A stretch of 64,000 bases of DNA from an uncultured Nitrosospira sp. (GTDB lineage Bacteria; Nitrospirota; Nitrospiria; Nitrospirales; Nitrospiraceae): the NCBI GenBank assembly GCA_900696515.1, contig CAADGK010000093.1, forward strand, positions 1 through 64,000. The letters run 5' to 3'. The notes below the pieces were generated by a model that had not been told where the DNA came from, searched no databases, and saw nothing but the letters and a program-made list of their open reading frames with translations. Below, in pieces: positions 21,488-56,881 of the stretch. The translations under genes were made by a program, and so were the position numbers. How positions within the stretch are numbered: the stretch's first letter is position 1; each line of letters starts with the position of its first letter.

Positions 21488-22180
21488 TTATGTTCCACGT
21501 GGAACAGTAACTGAGGAGAATTCACTACGATAGGCAAATACTGAAATAGTTCTGGACCCATGAGCATGTGGCAGGTCAAACGTATAGTCACTCTCGAAAC
21601 TCCAGTCGATAGGGCAAGTAGTTCTGTCCATCGGTTTCGATGAGTAAGTAAATGCCTTGCTGCATCTTTTCAATAAGTTATGTGTCTTGTGAAACATGAG
21701 CGAAGGATTTAGTGCACGAGTGGTAAGGTAATCATATAAAGCTGTGGAAGGATATCTGTTCCTGAATAGTTCAATAGTTCCTTGGAAGATATCAATATTG
21801 TTTAATCGTAAGAGGCCCACAATGAAATGAAGAAAAGCTGATTTCTTGTGAGCTGGCTCGATCAATGTCACGCAAAGATCAGGGCGTACTATTTTTAGAG
21901 GAATTCCTGGAAAACCAGCCCCTGTTCCAACATCCAGAATATGAGACCCGTGCGCAATATTCACGGCTCTTAGTGCCGCTATCGAATCTATAAAATGCTT
22001 GACAATAATGTCCTCATCTTTTGTGATAGCGGTAAGATTGAAGGATTGATTCCAGATCTTAAGTTGTTTCAGATACAGGAGGAATAGTTGAACTTGTGGC
22101 GGATCAACTGTGACCTCAATTGCTTTTGAGCCTTCCAGCAGGAGATGCTCCAGTACCTCACGTTGTTCCACGTGGAACAC
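21488..22180 (-). CDS. rsmG: 16S rRNA 7-methylguanosine methyltransferase RsmG
   Basis: RsmG (GidB) methylates N7 of G527 in 16S rRNA. The 230-residue protein has the SAM-binding motif ILDVGTGAGFPGIPL at about 91-105, and the substrate-side pattern TAITKDEDIIVKHFIDSI. The first residues, MFHVEQ, and the last, VPRGT, are encoded by parS palindromes at each end. Because the ATG is the beginning of the palindrome, the true start may lie downstream in the gene. It lies between mnmG and parA, the usual place. Confidence 0.94.
   Translation of the reverse strand: MFHVEQREVLEHLLLEGSKAIEVTVDPPQVQLFLLYLKQLKIWNQSFNLTAITKDEDIIVKHFIDSIAALRAVNIAHGSHILDVGTGAGFPGIPLKIVRPDLCVTLIEPAHKKSAFLHFIVGLLRLNNIDIFQGTIELFRNRYPSTALYDYLTTRALNPSLMFHKTHNLLKRCSKAFTYSSKPMDRTTCPIDWSFESDYTFDLPHAHGSRTISVFAYRSEFSSVTVPRGT
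21491..21506. promoter_or_regulatory. parS: parS site (in the last codons of rsmG)
   Basis: TGTTCCACGTGGAACA is a perfect 16-base palindrome and differs from the widely conserved parS (TGTTTCACGTGAAACA) by one symmetrical pair. On the minus strand it encodes the last residues (VPRGT) of RsmG and its stop follows directly. ParB is expected to bind here. Confidence 0.9.
22164..22179. promoter_or_regulatory. parS: parS site (in the first codons of rsmG)
   Basis: A second copy of TGTTCCACGTGGAACA, identical to the one at 21491-21506, lies in the rsmG start region and encodes FHVE of the protein. Two perfect parS copies 673 bases apart flank rsmG. Confidence 0.9.
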
Positions 22181-25625: not shown

Positions 25626-27323
25626 TCATTTTAGTTTGCTCGGCTCATCCGTACTCGGAGCCACTGATCGGTTTTTAAAGAAGAACCGGTCTGTGACGAA
25701 CTGCTGAGCGATGGACAACACATTGTTGGTCAGCCAGTACAAAACTAAGCCGGCAGGAAAGTTAATGAACAGGAACGTCATGACGACGGGCAGCATCAAC
25801 ATCATCTTCGCCTGGGCGGGATCCATCGTAGTGGGCTGAATCTTCTGCATCACCATCATGCTGATCCCCATGATAATGGGCAGAATGTAATAGGGATCCT
25901 GAACGGACAGGTCGGTGATCCAGAGACCCAAAGGAGCTTGGCGAAGGTCGATCGTCATGTAGAGGATATTGAACAGGGACACGAACACCGGCATTTGAAG
26001 GACCATCGGCAGACAGCCCCCCACAGGATTCACCTTATGATCGCGATACAGCTTGATCAGCTCCCTATTCAAGCGGTCACGATCATCCTTGAATTTCTCT
26101 TGGAGTGCAGCCACTTTAGGTTGGATAGTCTGCATCTGCTTCATCGATGAGTAGCTCTTGTACTGCAAAGGAACGAATAACAGTTTGATCGCAACGGTCA
26201 ATAGGATGATGGTGACACCGTAATTGTGGGTGTACTCGTTGATGGAACGAAGTACGGAGAAGATCGGTTTGGCGACAGCCCTCACCATGTCCCAGCTGCC
26301 GAATAGAAACCATCCGAAATCAATCGTATCTTCAAGGCGGATATGTAGGTTTTGAAGTGTGTCGAATTCCTTCGGCCCCGCAAATAATTGTAATGCGAGC
26401 GGGGCGCCGGATGGATCGATACCCATGCGAACGCCGGTGGAGACCAGTTTTTCACCCTGCTTCTTCGGCCAAGCGGAGGTACTTCCCTTCGGAATAAGCG
26501 CCGACATGAAGTACTTGTCCTGCAGGGCAGTCCATGCCACTGCGCCTTTGCGTTCGGTGTCGGATTCCGGGGCGTCGGTGTCCAGCTTGTCGTCAATCAA
26601 TGACACTGTTCCAACAGAACCGATGAATCCCTCACCCCACTCCACCACGCCGAAATTGGTGCCCAATTCCACTTTCAAAGGCCCTGTCAGTCCTTTGGTT
26701 GTTAAGCTGATGTCCACAAGATAGCTGTCGGCATGAAAGGTGAACTGCTTCTCAAGGTGTATGTCGGAACCAGGGTTGCCGTAGTGGAATGTGATGTGGC
26801 CGATTGGGTGTTCTCGGTCTAAAGTCGTAAAATCCTGCTCTACCTTGTAAACACTCTCCCTCAATTCCTTGGCAAGTGTCGCATCGTCCGTTGTGACAGT
26901 GAGGGGGTCGGCAAATTTCCCTCCTTGTCGAACGAGCTGGACAAAAGATTTCCCATCAGAGCTGCTGCGATAGCGTTTAAGCTCCCAGCTTGTCAGCACG
27001 GCTCCTCTGGACGTGAACTTGGCACGATAAAGTTCGGTCTCTACCTCAACCGATGCCGCGGCGACGGACTCCATGCGAGCGGGTGGCACCTTGGGATTAT
27101 CAGTACGGGGCGTCCCAGGTGACTCCGGGGTTTTCCCAGCCGCTGGAATTGCCGGCTGGCCTCCGGAACCGGCACCTGGAGCAGAGACTGCTTCATCAGG
27201 GACTGATCCTGCAGAATCTGAGACGGTTGGAGGCGGTAGCAGGCCCAATCCTCTGAGCGCATACTCATATCCAAAGACAATCGCAGCTGAGAGTATTAAA
27301 AAGACAACGAGGCGCTTTTCCAT
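25626..27323 (-). CDS. yidC: Membrane protein insertase YidC
   Basis: The 565-residue protein is of the long Gram-negative type: an N-terminal membrane anchor (VVFLILSAAIVFGYEYAL), a large periplasmic P1 domain of about 300 residues, then the five-span insertase core with the conserved YGVTIILLTVAIKLLFVPL, the hydrophilic hairpin with KDDRDRLNRELIKLYRDHKVNPVGGCLPM, and a short basic tail. The protein inserts and folds inner-membrane proteins. It lies between mnmE and yidD-rnpA-rpmH. Confidence 0.96.
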   Translation of the reverse strand: MEKRLVVFLILSAAIVFGYEYALRGLGLLPPPTVSDSAGSVPDEAVSAPGAGSGGQPAIPAAGKTPESPGTPRTDNPKVPPARMESVAAASVEVETELYRAKFTSRGAVLTSWELKRYRSSSDGKSFVQLVRQGGKFADPLTVTTDDATLAKELRESVYKVEQDFTTLDREHPIGHITFHYGNPGSDIHLEKQFTFHADSYLVDISLTTKGLTGPLKVELGTNFGVVEWGEGFIGSVGTVSLIDDKLDTDAPESDTERKGAVAWTALQDKYFMSALIPKGSTSAWPKKQGEKLVSTGVRMGIDPSGAPLALQLFAGPKEFDTLQNLHIRLEDTIDFGWFLFGSWDMVRAVAKPIFSVLRSINEYTHNYGVTIILLTVAIKLLFVPLQYKSYSSMKQMQTIQPKVAALQEKFKDDRDRLNRELIKLYRDHKVNPVGGCLPMVLQMPVFVSLFNILYMTIDLRQAPLGLWITDLSVQDPYYILPIIMGISMMVMQKIQPTTMDPAQAKMMLMLPVVMTFLFINFPAGLVLYWLTNNVLSIAQQFVTDRFFFKNRSVAPSTDEPSKLK

Positions 27324-28643: not shown

Positions 28644-29255
28644 ATGGCGAGAAGAGTAGCCCTTGTATCGATAGCCCTCACCCTATCGCTGACGGCGGGG
28701 TGTGCGGACCCACCCACCCAGCAGGTCCAAGAGGCAGAAAAGGCACTGAAAGAAGCACAGGAGAGCGGGGCGGCCACGTATTCTGCGGAAGAATACGCCA
28801 AGCTTGAGGGGACACTGGCGGCCATGAGGAAAGAAGTCTCCGATCAAGAAGGAAAATTCGGACTGTTTCGGGACTACGGCAAAGCGCAACAGCTCTCTGC
28901 TTCAGCCAAGGCAGAAAGTGACCGCATAAAAGCCGCGTCAGTTCAAAAAAAGGAAGAGGCCAAAGCAGCGGCTTTGCAGGCCCAACAGGTCGCAGAAGAG
29001 GCAGTAAGAGCGACCCAAGATCTCGTCGCCAAGGCACCGGTCGGGAAGGATCGGGCCGCGGTGGAAGCGATCAGGAACGATGTTGAAGGTCTGAAGTCCT
29101 TGCTCAAACAGGTTCAGGCATCCATCGACAAGGAAGATTTTCCGGCCGCACAAACTCAGGCCAAGGCCATTCATGATATGAGCCAAGGTGTTTCAACCGA
29201 AATACAAAACGCCCTTGCCAAGGTAGGGAAAGGAAAACCAGGACGGAGAAAATAA
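28644..29255 (+). CDS. Coiled-coil lipoprotein with a DUF4398-like domain
   Basis: From the ATG at 28644 (AAGGAGG at 8-14 bases upstream) the 203-residue product has a lipoprotein signal (VALVSIALTLSLTAGCADP, lipobox Cys). The rest is almost all helix: an Ala/Glu/Lys-rich coiled coil and a DUF4398-like stretch ATYSAEEYAKLEGTLAAM. Such proteins occur next to L,D-transpeptidases and OmpA-like proteins in the envelope, as here. It probably spans or tethers the periplasm, but the function is not known. Confidence 0.8.
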   Translation: MARRVALVSIALTLSLTAGCADPPTQQVQEAEKALKEAQESGAATYSAEEYAKLEGTLAAMRKEVSDQEGKFGLFRDYGKAQQLSASAKAESDRIKAASVQKKEEAKAAALQAQQVAEEAVRATQDLVAKAPVGKDRAAVEAIRNDVEGLKSLLKQVQASIDKEDFPAAQTQAKAIHDMSQGVSTEIQNALAKVGKGKPGRRK

Positions 29256-52666: not shown

Positions 52667-52741
52667 TGGAGCGGGAAAAGGGATTTGAACCCTCGACCCT
52701 CGCCTTGGCAAGGCGATGCTCTACCACTGAGCTATTCCCGC
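52667..52741 (-). tRNA. tRNA-Gly (anticodon GCC)
   Basis: On the minus strand: acceptor GCGGGAA/TTCCCGC, D-arm with TAGCTCAGTGGTAGAGCA, anticodon loop TTGCCAA with GCC at the anticodon, T-arm GGGTTCAAATCCC, and an encoded CCA. It reads GGC and GGU codons. Confidence 0.96.
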
Positions 52742-53045
52742 CCGTGCACAACCAGGGGCGGAGTGTACTGACCTCTCCTGGCACTGTCAAGCGGCGATTC
52801 CTTCATATTGCGCCGACCTTATCACCGATCAGCCTGGGCGCGCCCCAGTGGGCTGACTCTGATGTGCTGCATGGTATTCGCCCGAGACTTGAGCTGAGCG
52901 GAATCCCCTCCCTGCCTGAGCTTGAGATCGAATTCAGGATGACCCGTTAATCCGGATTCATCTGCGACCTGGGTGAAGGAGAATCCCATTCCCACAATGC
53001 GATGAATAGTTACTATTTTGTAACGTTATCGTCTGAAGGGAGGAA

Positions 53046-53059
53046 TATTTGTACAAATA
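53046..53059. promoter_or_regulatory. 14-base perfect palindrome upstream of nxrA
   Basis: TATTTGTACAAATA is a perfect two-fold palindrome 385 bases upstream of the nxrA ATG. It has the size and symmetry of an operator for a dimeric regulator. The regulator is not known. Confidence 0.55.
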
Positions 53060-53273
53060 GGCAATTTATCAATAACTTATGCATGAAGTGACCGGCCAAT
53101 CATCTATGAACGTCACGTTTAGTGATACGTATGCTACTCATCAAGAAACCAGACAAGGATCAAAGCTCTCTGTTCCACAAAATAATAAACATTCATGTTA
53201 TTAAGCAGTTAAATAACTTTTCATAGGAGGAAGCAGGTGTTGCCATAAATGGTTTGAATCTTGCGAAGGATTC

Positions 53274-53348
53274 ATGTTGAGACGTTTGATCCATGGTGGT
53301 ATATGTGTGGCCTATTTTTATTTAATGAACTACACAGCGAGAGTCTGA
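53274..53348 (+). CDS. Possible 24-codon leader peptide before nxrA
   Basis: The open frame reads MLRRLIHGGICVAYFYLMNYTARV and stops 96 bases before nxrA. A weak GAAGGAT site precedes it. It has a basic start and a hydrophobic middle like a signal or small membrane peptide. It could be a leader peptide or chance; only conservation in related genomes can decide. Confidence 0.25.
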   Translation: MLRRLIHGGICVAYFYLMNYTARV

Positions 53349-53443
53349 CGGCCCTGTTGAGTGAAAAAGAAACAAGGTTCTATCAGCAATCAATATAAAG
53401 AAAAGCTTCGTTCAAGTTCACTTCACGTGAGGAGGTATTCACA

Positions 53444-56400
53444 ATGTTCTTGTCACGTCGACAATTTCTAAAGGTCTCTGTCGGTACGGTTGCGGCCGCA
53501 GCCGTGGCGGACAAGGTCCTGGCATTGACGGCGCTCCAACCGGTGATCGAGGTCGGGAATCCGTTGGGGGATTACCCGGACCGGTCATGGGAGCGTGTTT
53601 ACCATGATCAGTATCGTTACGATTCGTCTTTTACCTGGGTCTGTTCTCCGAATGACACCCATGCCTGCCGCGTTCGCGCGTTCGTGCGAAACGGGGTAGT
53701 CATGCGTGTGGAGCAGAATTACGACCACCAAACCTACGAAGACCTCTACGGGAATCGAGGCACCTTTGCGCACAATCCGCGCATGTGCTTGAAGGGTTTT
53801 ACCTTCCATCGCCGGGTGTACGGTCCCTATCGTCTCAAGGGGCCGCTCATGCGGAAGGGTTGGAAGCAATGGATGGACGATGGATCACCGGAGCTCACAC
53901 CGGAAACCAAGCGCAAGTATAAGTTCGACAGCCGGTTCTTGGACGACATGCTTCGGGTGTCCTGGGATACCGCCTTTACCTACGCCGCAAAGGCCATGAT
54001 CATCATCGCGACGCGCTACTCCGGTGAGGCTGGAGCAAGGCGGTTACGCGAGCAGGGGTATGCACCGGAGATGATCGAAATGATGAAGGGCGCCGGTACG
54101 CGCTGCTTCAAGCACCGCGCCGGTATGCCGGTGCTCGGGATCATCGGGAAAATGGGCAACACCCGGATGAACGGCGGCATCAATGCGCTGCTGGATAGCT
54201 GGATTCGAAAAGTCAGTCCTGAGCAGGCTCAGGGCGGTCGTTACTGGTCGAATTACACCTGGCACGGAGATCAGAACCCATCGCAGCCGTTCTGGTCCGG
54301 TGTCCAGGGGTCGGATATCGACCTCTCGGATATGCGTTTCTCCAAGCTGAACACGAGTTGGGGAAAGAACTTTGTTGAAAACAAGATGCCCGAGGCGCAC
54401 TGGAAGTTGGAGTGTATTGAGCGCGGGGCCCGCGTCGTTGTCATCACGCCGGAATACAATCCGACCGCCTACCGAGCAGACTACTGGATGCCCCTGCGCC
54501 CGCAATCAGACGGCGCACTCTTCATGGGCGCCATGAAAATTATTATCGATGAGAATATGCACGATGTGGACTTCTTGAAACAGTTCACCGACGCGCCGAT
54601 TCTGATCCGTACGGATACGCTGCAGTACCTGGATCCTCGTGATGTGGTTCCGGATTACAAGTTCCCCGATTTCTCTAAGAGCTACTCCGGCCGTATTCAA
54701 GCACTCAAGCCGCAAGATGTCGAACGGCTCGGTGGGATGATGGTGTGGGATTTAAATAAGAAGCAGGCGGTTCCGCTCCATCGTGAGCAGGTGGGCTGGC
54801 ACTATATGAACAGCGGCATCGATGCCGCGCTCAATGGGACGTACCGGGTCAAGCTCCTGAACGGCCGTGAAATCGACGCGATGCCGGTATGGCAGATGTA
54901 TCTGGTTCACTTCCAGGATTACGATTTGGACACCACGCACCAGATCTGCCGGACTCCGAAGGATCTGATCGTCCGTTGGGCACGCGATTCGGGCACGATC
55001 AAGCCGGCTGCGATCCACAACGGAGAGGGCGTGACGCACTACTTCCACATGACGCCTAACGGCCGTGCAGCAGCCATGGTGCTCATCATCACGGGCAACG
55101 TCGGTAAGTTCGGCACCGGTCAGCATACCTGGGCTGGTAACTACAAGGCTGGTTGTTGGACGGCAACGCCATGGTCTGGTGCAGGCCTTGCGGTTCATAC
55201 GGGCGAAGATCCGTTCAATATCACGCTGGATCCCAATGCCCATGGAAAAGAAATCAAGACCAAGTCCTACTACTACGGCGAAGAGGTTGGTTACTGGAAC
55301 CATGGCGATACGGCGTTGATCGTCAATACGCCAAAGTATGGCCGTAAGGTCTTTACGGGTAAGACGCATATGCCGACCCCGAGCAAATTCCGCTGGGTTG
55401 TCAACGTCAACGTCTTGAACAACGCTAAGCACCATTACGATATGGTGCGGAACGTGGATCCAAACATCGAGACCCTGATCACGCAGGACATCGAAATGAC
55501 GTCTGACGTGAATCATAACGACATCGCCTTTGCCTGTAACTCCTGGATGGAGTTCACTTATCCGGAAATGACGATCACCGTCTCCAACCCATGGGTTCAG
55601 ATCTGGAAGGGCGGAATCAGGCCCTTGTATGACACGCGGAACGATCTGGATACCTTTGCCGGAGTGGCAGCCAAGCTGTCAGAGATGACCGGCGACAAGC
55701 GCATGAAAGATTACTTCGCGATGGTCTACGCGAATCGCGTGGACGTCTATGCGCAGCGCATGCTCGATGCGTCCAGCACATTCTACGGTTATTCAGCAGA
55801 CGTGATGTTGAAGTCGGAGAAGGGGTGGATGGTCATGGTCCGTACCTACCCGCGGCATCCATTCTGGGAGGAAACCAACGAGTCGAAGCCCATGTGGACC
55901 CGCAGCGGTCGATATGAGAACTATCGCATCGAACCGGAAGCGATCGAGTACGGTGAAAACTTTATCTCCCATCGTGAAGGGCCGGAAGCAACACCCTATT
56001 TGCCGAACGCCATCTTCACGACGAATCCCTATTGCCGTCCGGATGACTATGGTGTGCCGATCACGGCACAACACCACGACGACAAAACGATCCGGAACAT
56101 CAAGTTGTCATGGCATGAGATTGTACGGCACTCAAATCCCTTGTGGGAAAAGGGCTATCAGTTCTACTGCGTGACGCCGAAGACCCGCCACCGCGTCCAT
56201 AGCCAATGGTCGGTGAACGACTGGGTGCAGATCTACGAGTCGAACTTCGGTGACCCCTACCGCATGGATAAGCGGACGCCTGGCGTGGGTGAGCACCAGA
56301 TCCATATCAACCCGCAGGCGGCGAAAGACCGTGGGATCAACGACGGTGACTATGTCTATGTCGACGGTAACCCGGTCGATCGTCCGTATCGTGGGTGGAA

Positions 56401-56881
56401 GCCGAGCGATCCCTACTACAAGGTCGCCCGACTCATGATCCGGGCAAAGTACAACCCGGCCTATCCGTACCATGTGACGATGGCCAAGCATGCTCCGTAT
56501 GTGGCGACGGCAAAATCAGTGAAGGGGCATGAAACCAGACCGGATGGACGCGCCATTGCCATCGACACTGGGTATCAGTCCAACTTCCGATATGGTGCGC
56601 AACAGTCATTTACCAGAAACTGGCTCATGCCGATGCACCAGACAGACTCACTTCCCGGCAAACACGCGATTGCCTGGAAATTCAAGTGGGGCTATCAGGT
56701 GGATCACCACGCGATCAACACCGTGCCGAAAGAATGTCTCATCCGCATCACCAAGGCGGAAGACGGCGGGATCGGGGCACGCGGTCCATGGGAGCCGGTG
56801 CGTACCGGATTTACCCCGGGCCAAGAGAACGAGTTCATGATTAAGTGGCTGAAGGGCGAGCATATTAAGATTAAAGTGTAA
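53444..56881 (+). CDS. nxrA: Nitrite oxidoreductase alpha subunit NxrA
   Basis: NxrA is the molybdenum catalytic subunit that oxidises nitrite to nitrate. The 1145-residue protein begins with a twin-arginine signal (SRRQFLK at 4-10, hydrophobic stretch to about 28), so it is exported folded to the periplasm. The FS0 iron-sulfur site aligns with NarG through C67, D71, C75 and C115, with Asp at the second position. The Mo-ligand Asp is best placed at D296 (in DIDLSDMRF). It belongs to the DMSO-reductase family type II, with the Nitrospira-specific length and sequence. GAGGAGGT sits 8 bases before the ATG. nxrB follows after 82 bases. Confidence 0.98.
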   Translation: MFLSRRQFLKVSVGTVAAAAVADKVLALTALQPVIEVGNPLGDYPDRSWERVYHDQYRYDSSFTWVCSPNDTHACRVRAFVRNGVVMRVEQNYDHQTYEDLYGNRGTFAHNPRMCLKGFTFHRRVYGPYRLKGPLMRKGWKQWMDDGSPELTPETKRKYKFDSRFLDDMLRVSWDTAFTYAAKAMIIIATRYSGEAGARRLREQGYAPEMIEMMKGAGTRCFKHRAGMPVLGIIGKMGNTRMNGGINALLDSWIRKVSPEQAQGGRYWSNYTWHGDQNPSQPFWSGVQGSDIDLSDMRFSKLNTSWGKNFVENKMPEAHWKLECIERGARVVVITPEYNPTAYRADYWMPLRPQSDGALFMGAMKIIIDENMHDVDFLKQFTDAPILIRTDTLQYLDPRDVVPDYKFPDFSKSYSGRIQALKPQDVERLGGMMVWDLNKKQAVPLHREQVGWHYMNSGIDAALNGTYRVKLLNGREIDAMPVWQMYLVHFQDYDLDTTHQICRTPKDLIVRWARDSGTIKPAAIHNGEGVTHYFHMTPNGRAAAMVLIITGNVGKFGTGQHTWAGNYKAGCWTATPWSGAGLAVHTGEDPFNITLDPNAHGKEIKTKSYYYGEEVGYWNHGDTALIVNTPKYGRKVFTGKTHMPTPSKFRWVVNVNVLNNAKHHYDMVRNVDPNIETLITQDIEMTSDVNHNDIAFACNSWMEFTYPEMTITVSNPWVQIWKGGIRPLYDTRNDLDTFAGVAAKLSEMTGDKRMKDYFAMVYANRVDVYAQRMLDASSTFYGYSADVMLKSEKGWMVMVRTYPRHPFWEETNESKPMWTRSGRYENYRIEPEAIEYGENFISHREGPEATPYLPNAIFTTNPYCRPDDYGVPITAQHHDDKTIRNIKLSWHEIVRHSNPLWEKGYQFYCVTPKTRHRVHSQWSVNDWVQIYESNFGDPYRMDKRTPGVGEHQIHINPQAAKDRGINDGDYVYVDGNPVDRPYRGWKPSDPYYKVARLMIRAKYNPAYPYHVTMAKHAPYVATAKSVKGHETRPDGRAIAIDTGYQSNFRYGAQQSFTRNWLMPMHQTDSLPGKHAIAWKFKWGYQVDHHAINTVPKECLIRITKAEDGGIGARGPWEPVRTGFTPGQENEFMIKWLKGEHIKIKV

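Follow-up and report, generated by a model that had tools for sequence, protein, structure and literature searches.

A conserved, probably sigma-54-dependent promoter region before the nitrite oxidoreductase gene nxrA in Nitrospirales

The control of nitrite oxidoreductase in nitrifiers is poorly known, and the nxrA locus described here raises the question of which elements of the DNA immediately before the gene could govern its expression. The window, by which we mean the whole stretch of 64,000 nucleotides analysed, contains nxrA and nxrB, with the nxrA leader lying between a tRNA-Gly gene and the nxrA start at 53444. The features of the locus are as follows.

52667–52741, minus strand: tRNA-Gly(gcc), found by ARAGORN and Rfam, serving as the marker by which this nxrA locus was identified in other genomes
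52762–52790, minus strand: predicted sigma-70-type promoter of the tRNA-Gly, divergent, TTGACA-N17-TACACT, from a promoter scan
53274–53348, plus strand: 24-codon open frame, not conserved
53401–53443, plus strand: conserved ribosome-binding region of nxrA (identity 0.88), with AGGAGG at 53430–53435
53444–56881, plus strand: nxrA, nitrite oxidoreductase alpha subunit, 1145 aa
56964–58253, plus strand: nxrB, beta subunit (4Fe-4S)

The nxrA leader, its palindromes and its small frame

The interval from the tRNA-Gly to nxrA shows no evident protein gene, in agreement with a first-pass annotation that had described the leader as AT-rich and lacking any known gene; the AT-richness holds for the downstream part (GC 0.39 in 53000–53499) and not for the rest, which is at about 0.57 around that part. 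The first ~50 bases of the leader are the tRNA-Gly promoter, and many relatives share that stretch (query 7–72). At the other end, the 35 bases immediately 5′ of nxrA (53409–53443) show strong conservation that is not confined to the ribosome-binding site, and in close relatives the segment TCACATCATGTGA could fold as a small hairpin directly 5′ of AGGAGG, with covariation support absent.

For comparison, 79 genomes of the genus were searched, and a match to the NxrA N-terminus at E ≤ 1e-80 was found in 60 of them. From these we took the leaders of 84 of the 86 matches listed and one further leader (85 in all), and a further search contributed 76 of 78 named loci, giving 161 nxrA upstream regions. 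These reduce to 124 distinct leaders for which 320 or more upstream bases are available. The same tRNA-Gly precedes 62 of them (tRNA-linked); in the other 62 it is not there or lies outside the available sequence. The remaining 19 of the 79 genomes, some of them near-complete assemblies (e.g. G040, G070), have no nxrA match at E ≤ 1e-80, and loss, divergence and sequence outside the data searched are not distinguished.

Three elements had been singled out as candidates for regulation of the enzyme, and all three are present in the window: a perfect 14-base palindrome, TATTTGTACAAATA, at 53046–53059; an imperfect palindrome, GTTATT-N9-AATAAC, at 53197–53217; and the 24-codon frame, ATG to TGA, at 53274–53348. 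The perfect palindrome is only mildly unusual, because block shuffles yield 4.2 perfect palindromes of 14 bases on average where the window contains six, and at least one occurs in 4.5% of shuffled leaders. Its expected conservation was not borne out: only the window's own leader among the 62 tRNA-linked leaders has fewer than three mismatches to TATTTGTACAAATA (0 in one, 3 in six, 4 to 6 in the rest). It is thus private to this genome, and we place it outside the proposed mechanism. Elsewhere in the window an identical perfect 14-base palindrome, GTTCCACGTGGAAC, is present at 21492–21505 and 22165–22178, the copies being 673 bases apart.

The 24-codon frame fares no better, and two others of the same length lie on the minus strand (52732–52806 and 53201–53275). 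Its ATG is kept in none of ten aligned relatives (one has GTG), and in nine of the ten the frame is frameshifted, stopped or largely or partly deleted. Because the transcription start predicted below (~53276) coincides with the ATG, the frame is probably untranslated. A later ATG within a conserved TATATG was also considered, and by-eye translation in several relatives gave no common peptide. The reading in which TATTTGTACAAATA acts as an operator and the frame encodes a leader peptide controlling nxrA has in its favour that both elements exist in the window, but with the palindrome private, the frame disrupted or lacking its start codon in relatives, its ATG at the predicted transcription start and no covariation in the leader that would indicate RNA structure, we regard it as very improbable. 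A conserved small frame with a ribosome-binding site, as would be expected of a leader-peptide attenuator, was not found in the leader. An RNA switch or attenuator was likewise set aside: the only Rfam families in the window at gathering threshold are tRNAs, the leader folds no better than shuffles (z 0.54), and none of 15 pairs in the leader covaries (6 sequences).

A conserved, probable promoter and its upstream elements

The general idea that the leader regulates this central energy enzyme is, by contrast with most of the elements first named for it, well supported by conserved promoter elements, three of which (the dyad GTTAC-N6-GTAAC, GNTAC-N5-CTACTCA and the sigma-54 promoter itself) the first-pass annotation had missed. 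The elements on which our reading is built are listed here, with positions in brackets relative to the predicted transcription start.

53009–53024, no strand: GTTAC-N6-GTAAC dyad, a putative enhancer or upstream activating site (predicted –267 to –252)
53067–53079, plus strand: second IHF-like site, TATCAATAACTTA (9/9 to WATCAANNNNTTR), with weaker support
53124–53140, plus strand: second upstream element, GNTAC-N5-CTACTCA (GATACGTATGCTACTCA), conserved (identity 0.82) and proposed as a further regulator site
53199–53211, plus strand: IHF-like site, TATTAAGCAGTTA (8/9), inside the imperfect palindrome 53197–53217
53250–53264, plus strand: predicted sigma-54 promoter, –24/–12, TGGTTTGAATCTTGC (identity 0.98; predicted transcription start ~53276)
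53277–53305, plus strand: overlapping sigma-70-like element TTGAGA-N17-TATATG, whose second hexamer is preceded by TGN; conserved within a single branch

The most strongly conserved of these is TGGTTTGAATCTTGC, which hardly varies among the 11 closest leaders: its mean pairwise identity is 0.98, and the overall value is 0.51. Its core, GG-N10-GC, is present in all 62 distinct tRNA-linked leaders, 114–288 bases 5′ of nxrA, compared with 0–1 of 62 in shuffles, 1 on the opposite strand and 3 in reversed letters. The longer form TGG-N8-TTGC occurs in 57 of the 62, the other five having a different first base, and in a matrix scan 58 of the 62 exceed the 99% shuffle level. Over 83 sites the base frequencies give TGGYWYGAATATTGC. 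The consensus for sigma-54 –24/–12 promoters is TGGCACG-N4-TTGC, and the window site fits it in GG, GC, the spacing, G7 and TTGC, with TTT instead of CAC at positions 4–6. Taken alone, TGG-N8-TTGC is as frequent in the whole window as chance predicts (10 found, 9.96 expected), and the case for a promoter therefore rests on conservation among related genomes. Among the non-linked nxrA leaders a strict sigma-54 site is present in 26 of 62 and absent in 36, and it recurs in Nitrospirales loci whose NxrA is 83–86% identical (e.g. L226, L230–L232, L234, L235, L244). Given this conservation, we conclude with high confidence that the stretch before nxrA is a conserved sigma-54 (RpoN)-dependent promoter region. 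A second nxrA paralogue, not tRNA-linked (L094, L096, L114), has no sigma-54 site. A NarL-type response regulator, visible by the start of its coding sequence, seems to be located close to it.

The dyad emerged from an unbiased count of inverted 5-mers. It is exact in 27 of 56 sigma-54-bearing loci, compared with at most three in shuffles, and every one of the 62 tRNA-linked leaders matches it in at least 8 of its 10 positions, 195–265 bases before the TGG (mostly 209–257); its mean pairwise identity is 0.77 against 0.51 overall. The second element, GNTAC-N5-CTACTCA, is matched at 16 or more of 17 positions in 43 of the 62 and was found in 46 of 83 leaders in a positional-enrichment test, and in most leaders carrying it the CTACTCA part is 113–119 bases before the TGG. 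It is exact once in the window, with three matches in total against 0.33 expected. The one-mismatch copies, both on the minus strand (26148–26164 and 28653–28669), have no strict sigma-54 site beside them. The NarL-type heptamer is TACYYMT, and we keep it as a weak lead for the CTACTCA element because only one half fits in most loci.

Between the dyad and the promoter, IHF-like WATCAANNNNTTR sites are enriched 39 and 48–52 bases before the TGG, reaching at least 8/9 at that position in 43 of 83 leaders compared with 7 of 415 background windows, and in only 26 of the 62 tRNA-linked leaders. The WATCARNNNNTTR site between enhancer and promoter scores 8/9 in the window, and it is this conserved site that the imperfect palindrome overlaps. 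The second IHF-like site is enriched to a lesser degree (20 of 83 leaders compared with 18 of 415 background windows). The IHF consensus appears as WATCARxxxxTTR in the available portion of PMC3897727. The conservation and positions of these sites lead us, with moderate confidence, to propose enhancer roles for the upstream elements and a role for IHF. Helical phasing of the sites was also considered, and distances taken by eye fit a 10.5-base period poorly.

Overlapping the sigma-54 promoter region, the motif TTGMRA-N17-TATATG looks like a sigma-70 promoter with an extended –10. It raises the alternative that this element (53277–53305) is the main promoter, the sigma-54 site being secondary or used only under special conditions. 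The motif is matched at 11 or more of 12 positions in 18 of 83 leaders, always 11–13 bases after the TTGC, and none of 415 shuffles reaches 11; divergent groups retain both TGN and the 17-base spacing. However, it is absent in most other leaders (e.g. L066, L069–L073), in contrast to GG-N10-GC in 62 of 62, it was not reported by the promoter scan, and TATATG lacks the final T preferred by sigma-70. TATATG is thus an imperfect second hexamer, and we consider the element unlikely to be the main promoter.

A more general alternative is that the conserved blocks are not a sigma-54 system at all, the dyad and second element binding an ordinary repressor or activator and TGG-N8-TTGC being part of another site. 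A single repressor dyad at a fixed distance would look similar, but the exact GG-N10-GC spacing, the fixed IHF-like site between dyad and promoter, the long dyad-to-promoter distance that is typical of enhancers, and the sigma-54 activator (bEBP) genes that adjoin other nxrA copies, in the literature as well as in the loci here, all argue against it, and we think it less probable still than a main sigma-70 promoter.

The best explanation, to which we assign a probability of about 0.77, combines an RpoN promoter, a bEBP at the dyad, a second regulator site and looping aided by IHF. In the mechanism that we infer from the conserved elements, RNA polymerase with RpoN would bind TGGTTTGAATCTTGC (53250–53264) and remain closed; an NtrC-family bEBP at GTTAC-N6-GTAAC (53009–53024) would contact it by looping of the DNA, and GNTAC-N5-CTACTCA (53124–53140) would be occupied by a further dimer of the regulator or by another factor. 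The loop may be aided by IHF bending the DNA at 53199–53211 and perhaps also at 53067–53079. ATP hydrolysis by the activator would then open the promoter, with transcription from near 53276 giving a leader of ~168 bases that is without a conserved small gene. The overlapping sigma-70-like element may give basal transcription in one branch of the genus, to which this genome belongs. Together, the conserved sigma-54 promoter, the enhancer-like sites and a site at which the DNA is probably bent make it probable that a dedicated regulator turns on nxrA, and with it the key enzyme of nitrite oxidation.

Distribution of the pattern and candidate activators

The exact dyad is present twice in this genome, once at the nxrA leader. 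The other copy is upstream of an open reading frame that we take to be polyphosphate-kinase-like, and since there is no sigma-54 site in the stretch examined there, we attribute it to chance. The combined dyad and sigma-54 pattern matches in 25 of the 79 genomes, nearly always at the nxrA leader; a reversed-letter control gave 12 matches in 12 of the 79. The sole other gene matched is an outer-membrane-type open reading frame in two genomes (G065:C1:2315069–2315321 and G066:C20:67135–67387; L169, L164). There a second full promoter architecture, with dyad, CTACTCA element and sigma-54 site, precedes the gene ~42 kb from nxrA, and this open reading frame is, from its upstream sequence, likely to be a second member of the regulon. 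The sigma-54 and dyad pair was also sought in the nxrC cluster of G003 and G000, and none was found.

The proteins called for by the proposed mechanism are encoded in the genome. There is one copy of rpoN (PF04552 match, 197.9 bits), 22 strong and two weak PF00158 matches to bEBPs, and five HU/IHF-family genes, among them IHF-alpha above the curated cut-off and an IHF-beta-like protein just under it (111.9 vs 115). The PF00158 matches all lie outside the window; on its contig the closest one (C93:111129) is ~57 kb from nxrA. bEBP genes adjoin other nxrA copies in the loci compared here, and these regulators were considered as the activator and rejected, their best matches being 37–49% identical among the part of this genome's own regulators compared. 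Genome G030 is small, 2.0 Mb with four bEBPs, and only two bEBP orthologues are common to this genome (G000), G029 and G030: L126 (AtoC/ZraR-like) and L128 (NtrX-like). Both are widespread, with L126 orthologues (at least 70% identity) in 71 of the 79 genomes and one partial, and L128 orthologues in 73, so distribution does not separate them.

A third candidate is L127, a bEBP beside nxrC–torD that is present in 70 of the 79 genomes; the names nxrC and torD for the open reading frames of G003 are our own assumption from gene order. Its orthologue in N. moscoviensis is the response regulator, an NtrC-type activator, of a two-component system contained in the nxrC–torD cluster. That cluster is described as diagnostic of nitrite oxidation in the available part of PMC12342949. 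No L127 orthologue was found in G030, although the nxrA of that genome carries the same promoter. Our confidence in any one protein is accordingly low: the response regulator beside nxrC–torD is one candidate, with the NtrX-like and AtoC/ZraR-like proteins as alternatives.

Relation to known systems and significance

Promoter regions of this kind are known. The orp promoters of Desulfovibrio vulgaris, as described in the portion of PMC3897727 available, are alike in having a –24/–12 element, an upstream palindromic activator site, one or more IHF sites between them and a sigma-70 promoter in the region. They differ from the nxrA leader in that its candidate activator is not beside the gene, its dyad is farther away (about –260), a second conserved element lies between, and the target is nitrite oxidoreductase. 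A second comparison is with the AioR-dependent aioBA and mcp promoters, for which the accessible text of two papers (PMC5335332, PMC7533571) gives a 16-base AioR box, GTT-N10-AAC, and an RpoN site needed for aioBA. The window dyad fits the AioR box in size, geometry and outer bases, but differs in its inner bases. Arsenite oxidase, in the same partial sources, is likewise an energy-yielding molybdoenzyme of a chemolithotrophic pathway under RpoN. We take the resemblance to AioR to be a likeness in working and not membership.

Sigma-54-dependent regulator genes near other Nitrospira nxrAB copies have been reported (Mundinger et al. 2019, PMC6606698; strain KM1, PMC7522533, both seen as excerpts), and as far as the excerpt of PMC6606698 extends, no regulator is named near nxrAB_1 or the N. 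inopinata locus. In contrast to those printed links, it is the promoter itself and its enhancer-like sites that are described here, at the tRNA-Gly-linked locus. The N. moscoviensis orthologue of this locus is nxrAB_1, for which the same excerpt gives an expression of 486 RPKM compared with 13,027 for nxrA_5. The sigma-54 site is absent from the leader of nxrA_5, the most expressed N. moscoviensis copy (L077/L183). A description of a sigma-54 promoter for nxrA was not found in the literature searched, although the older papers of Lucker 2010 and Koch 2015 may mention one; as far as that search shows, a promoter region of known kind is new for nxrA.

A more far-reaching proposal, which we offer as tentative and rather doubtful, is that an order-wide sigma-54 switch governs nitrite oxidation in the Nitrospirales, comammox members included, with the system adjacent to nxrC–torD (a dCache-HAMP-PAS histidine kinase and an NtrC-type regulator; G000:C77) sensing a nitrite-related signal and activating nxrAB at a distance through GTTAC-N6-GTAAC. 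A promoter defined precisely, together with two sites upstream of it and a small set of candidate activators, renders the control of nxrA testable. If the proposal is true, a core energy enzyme would be scarcely expressed without its activator, as in the case of arsenite oxidase.
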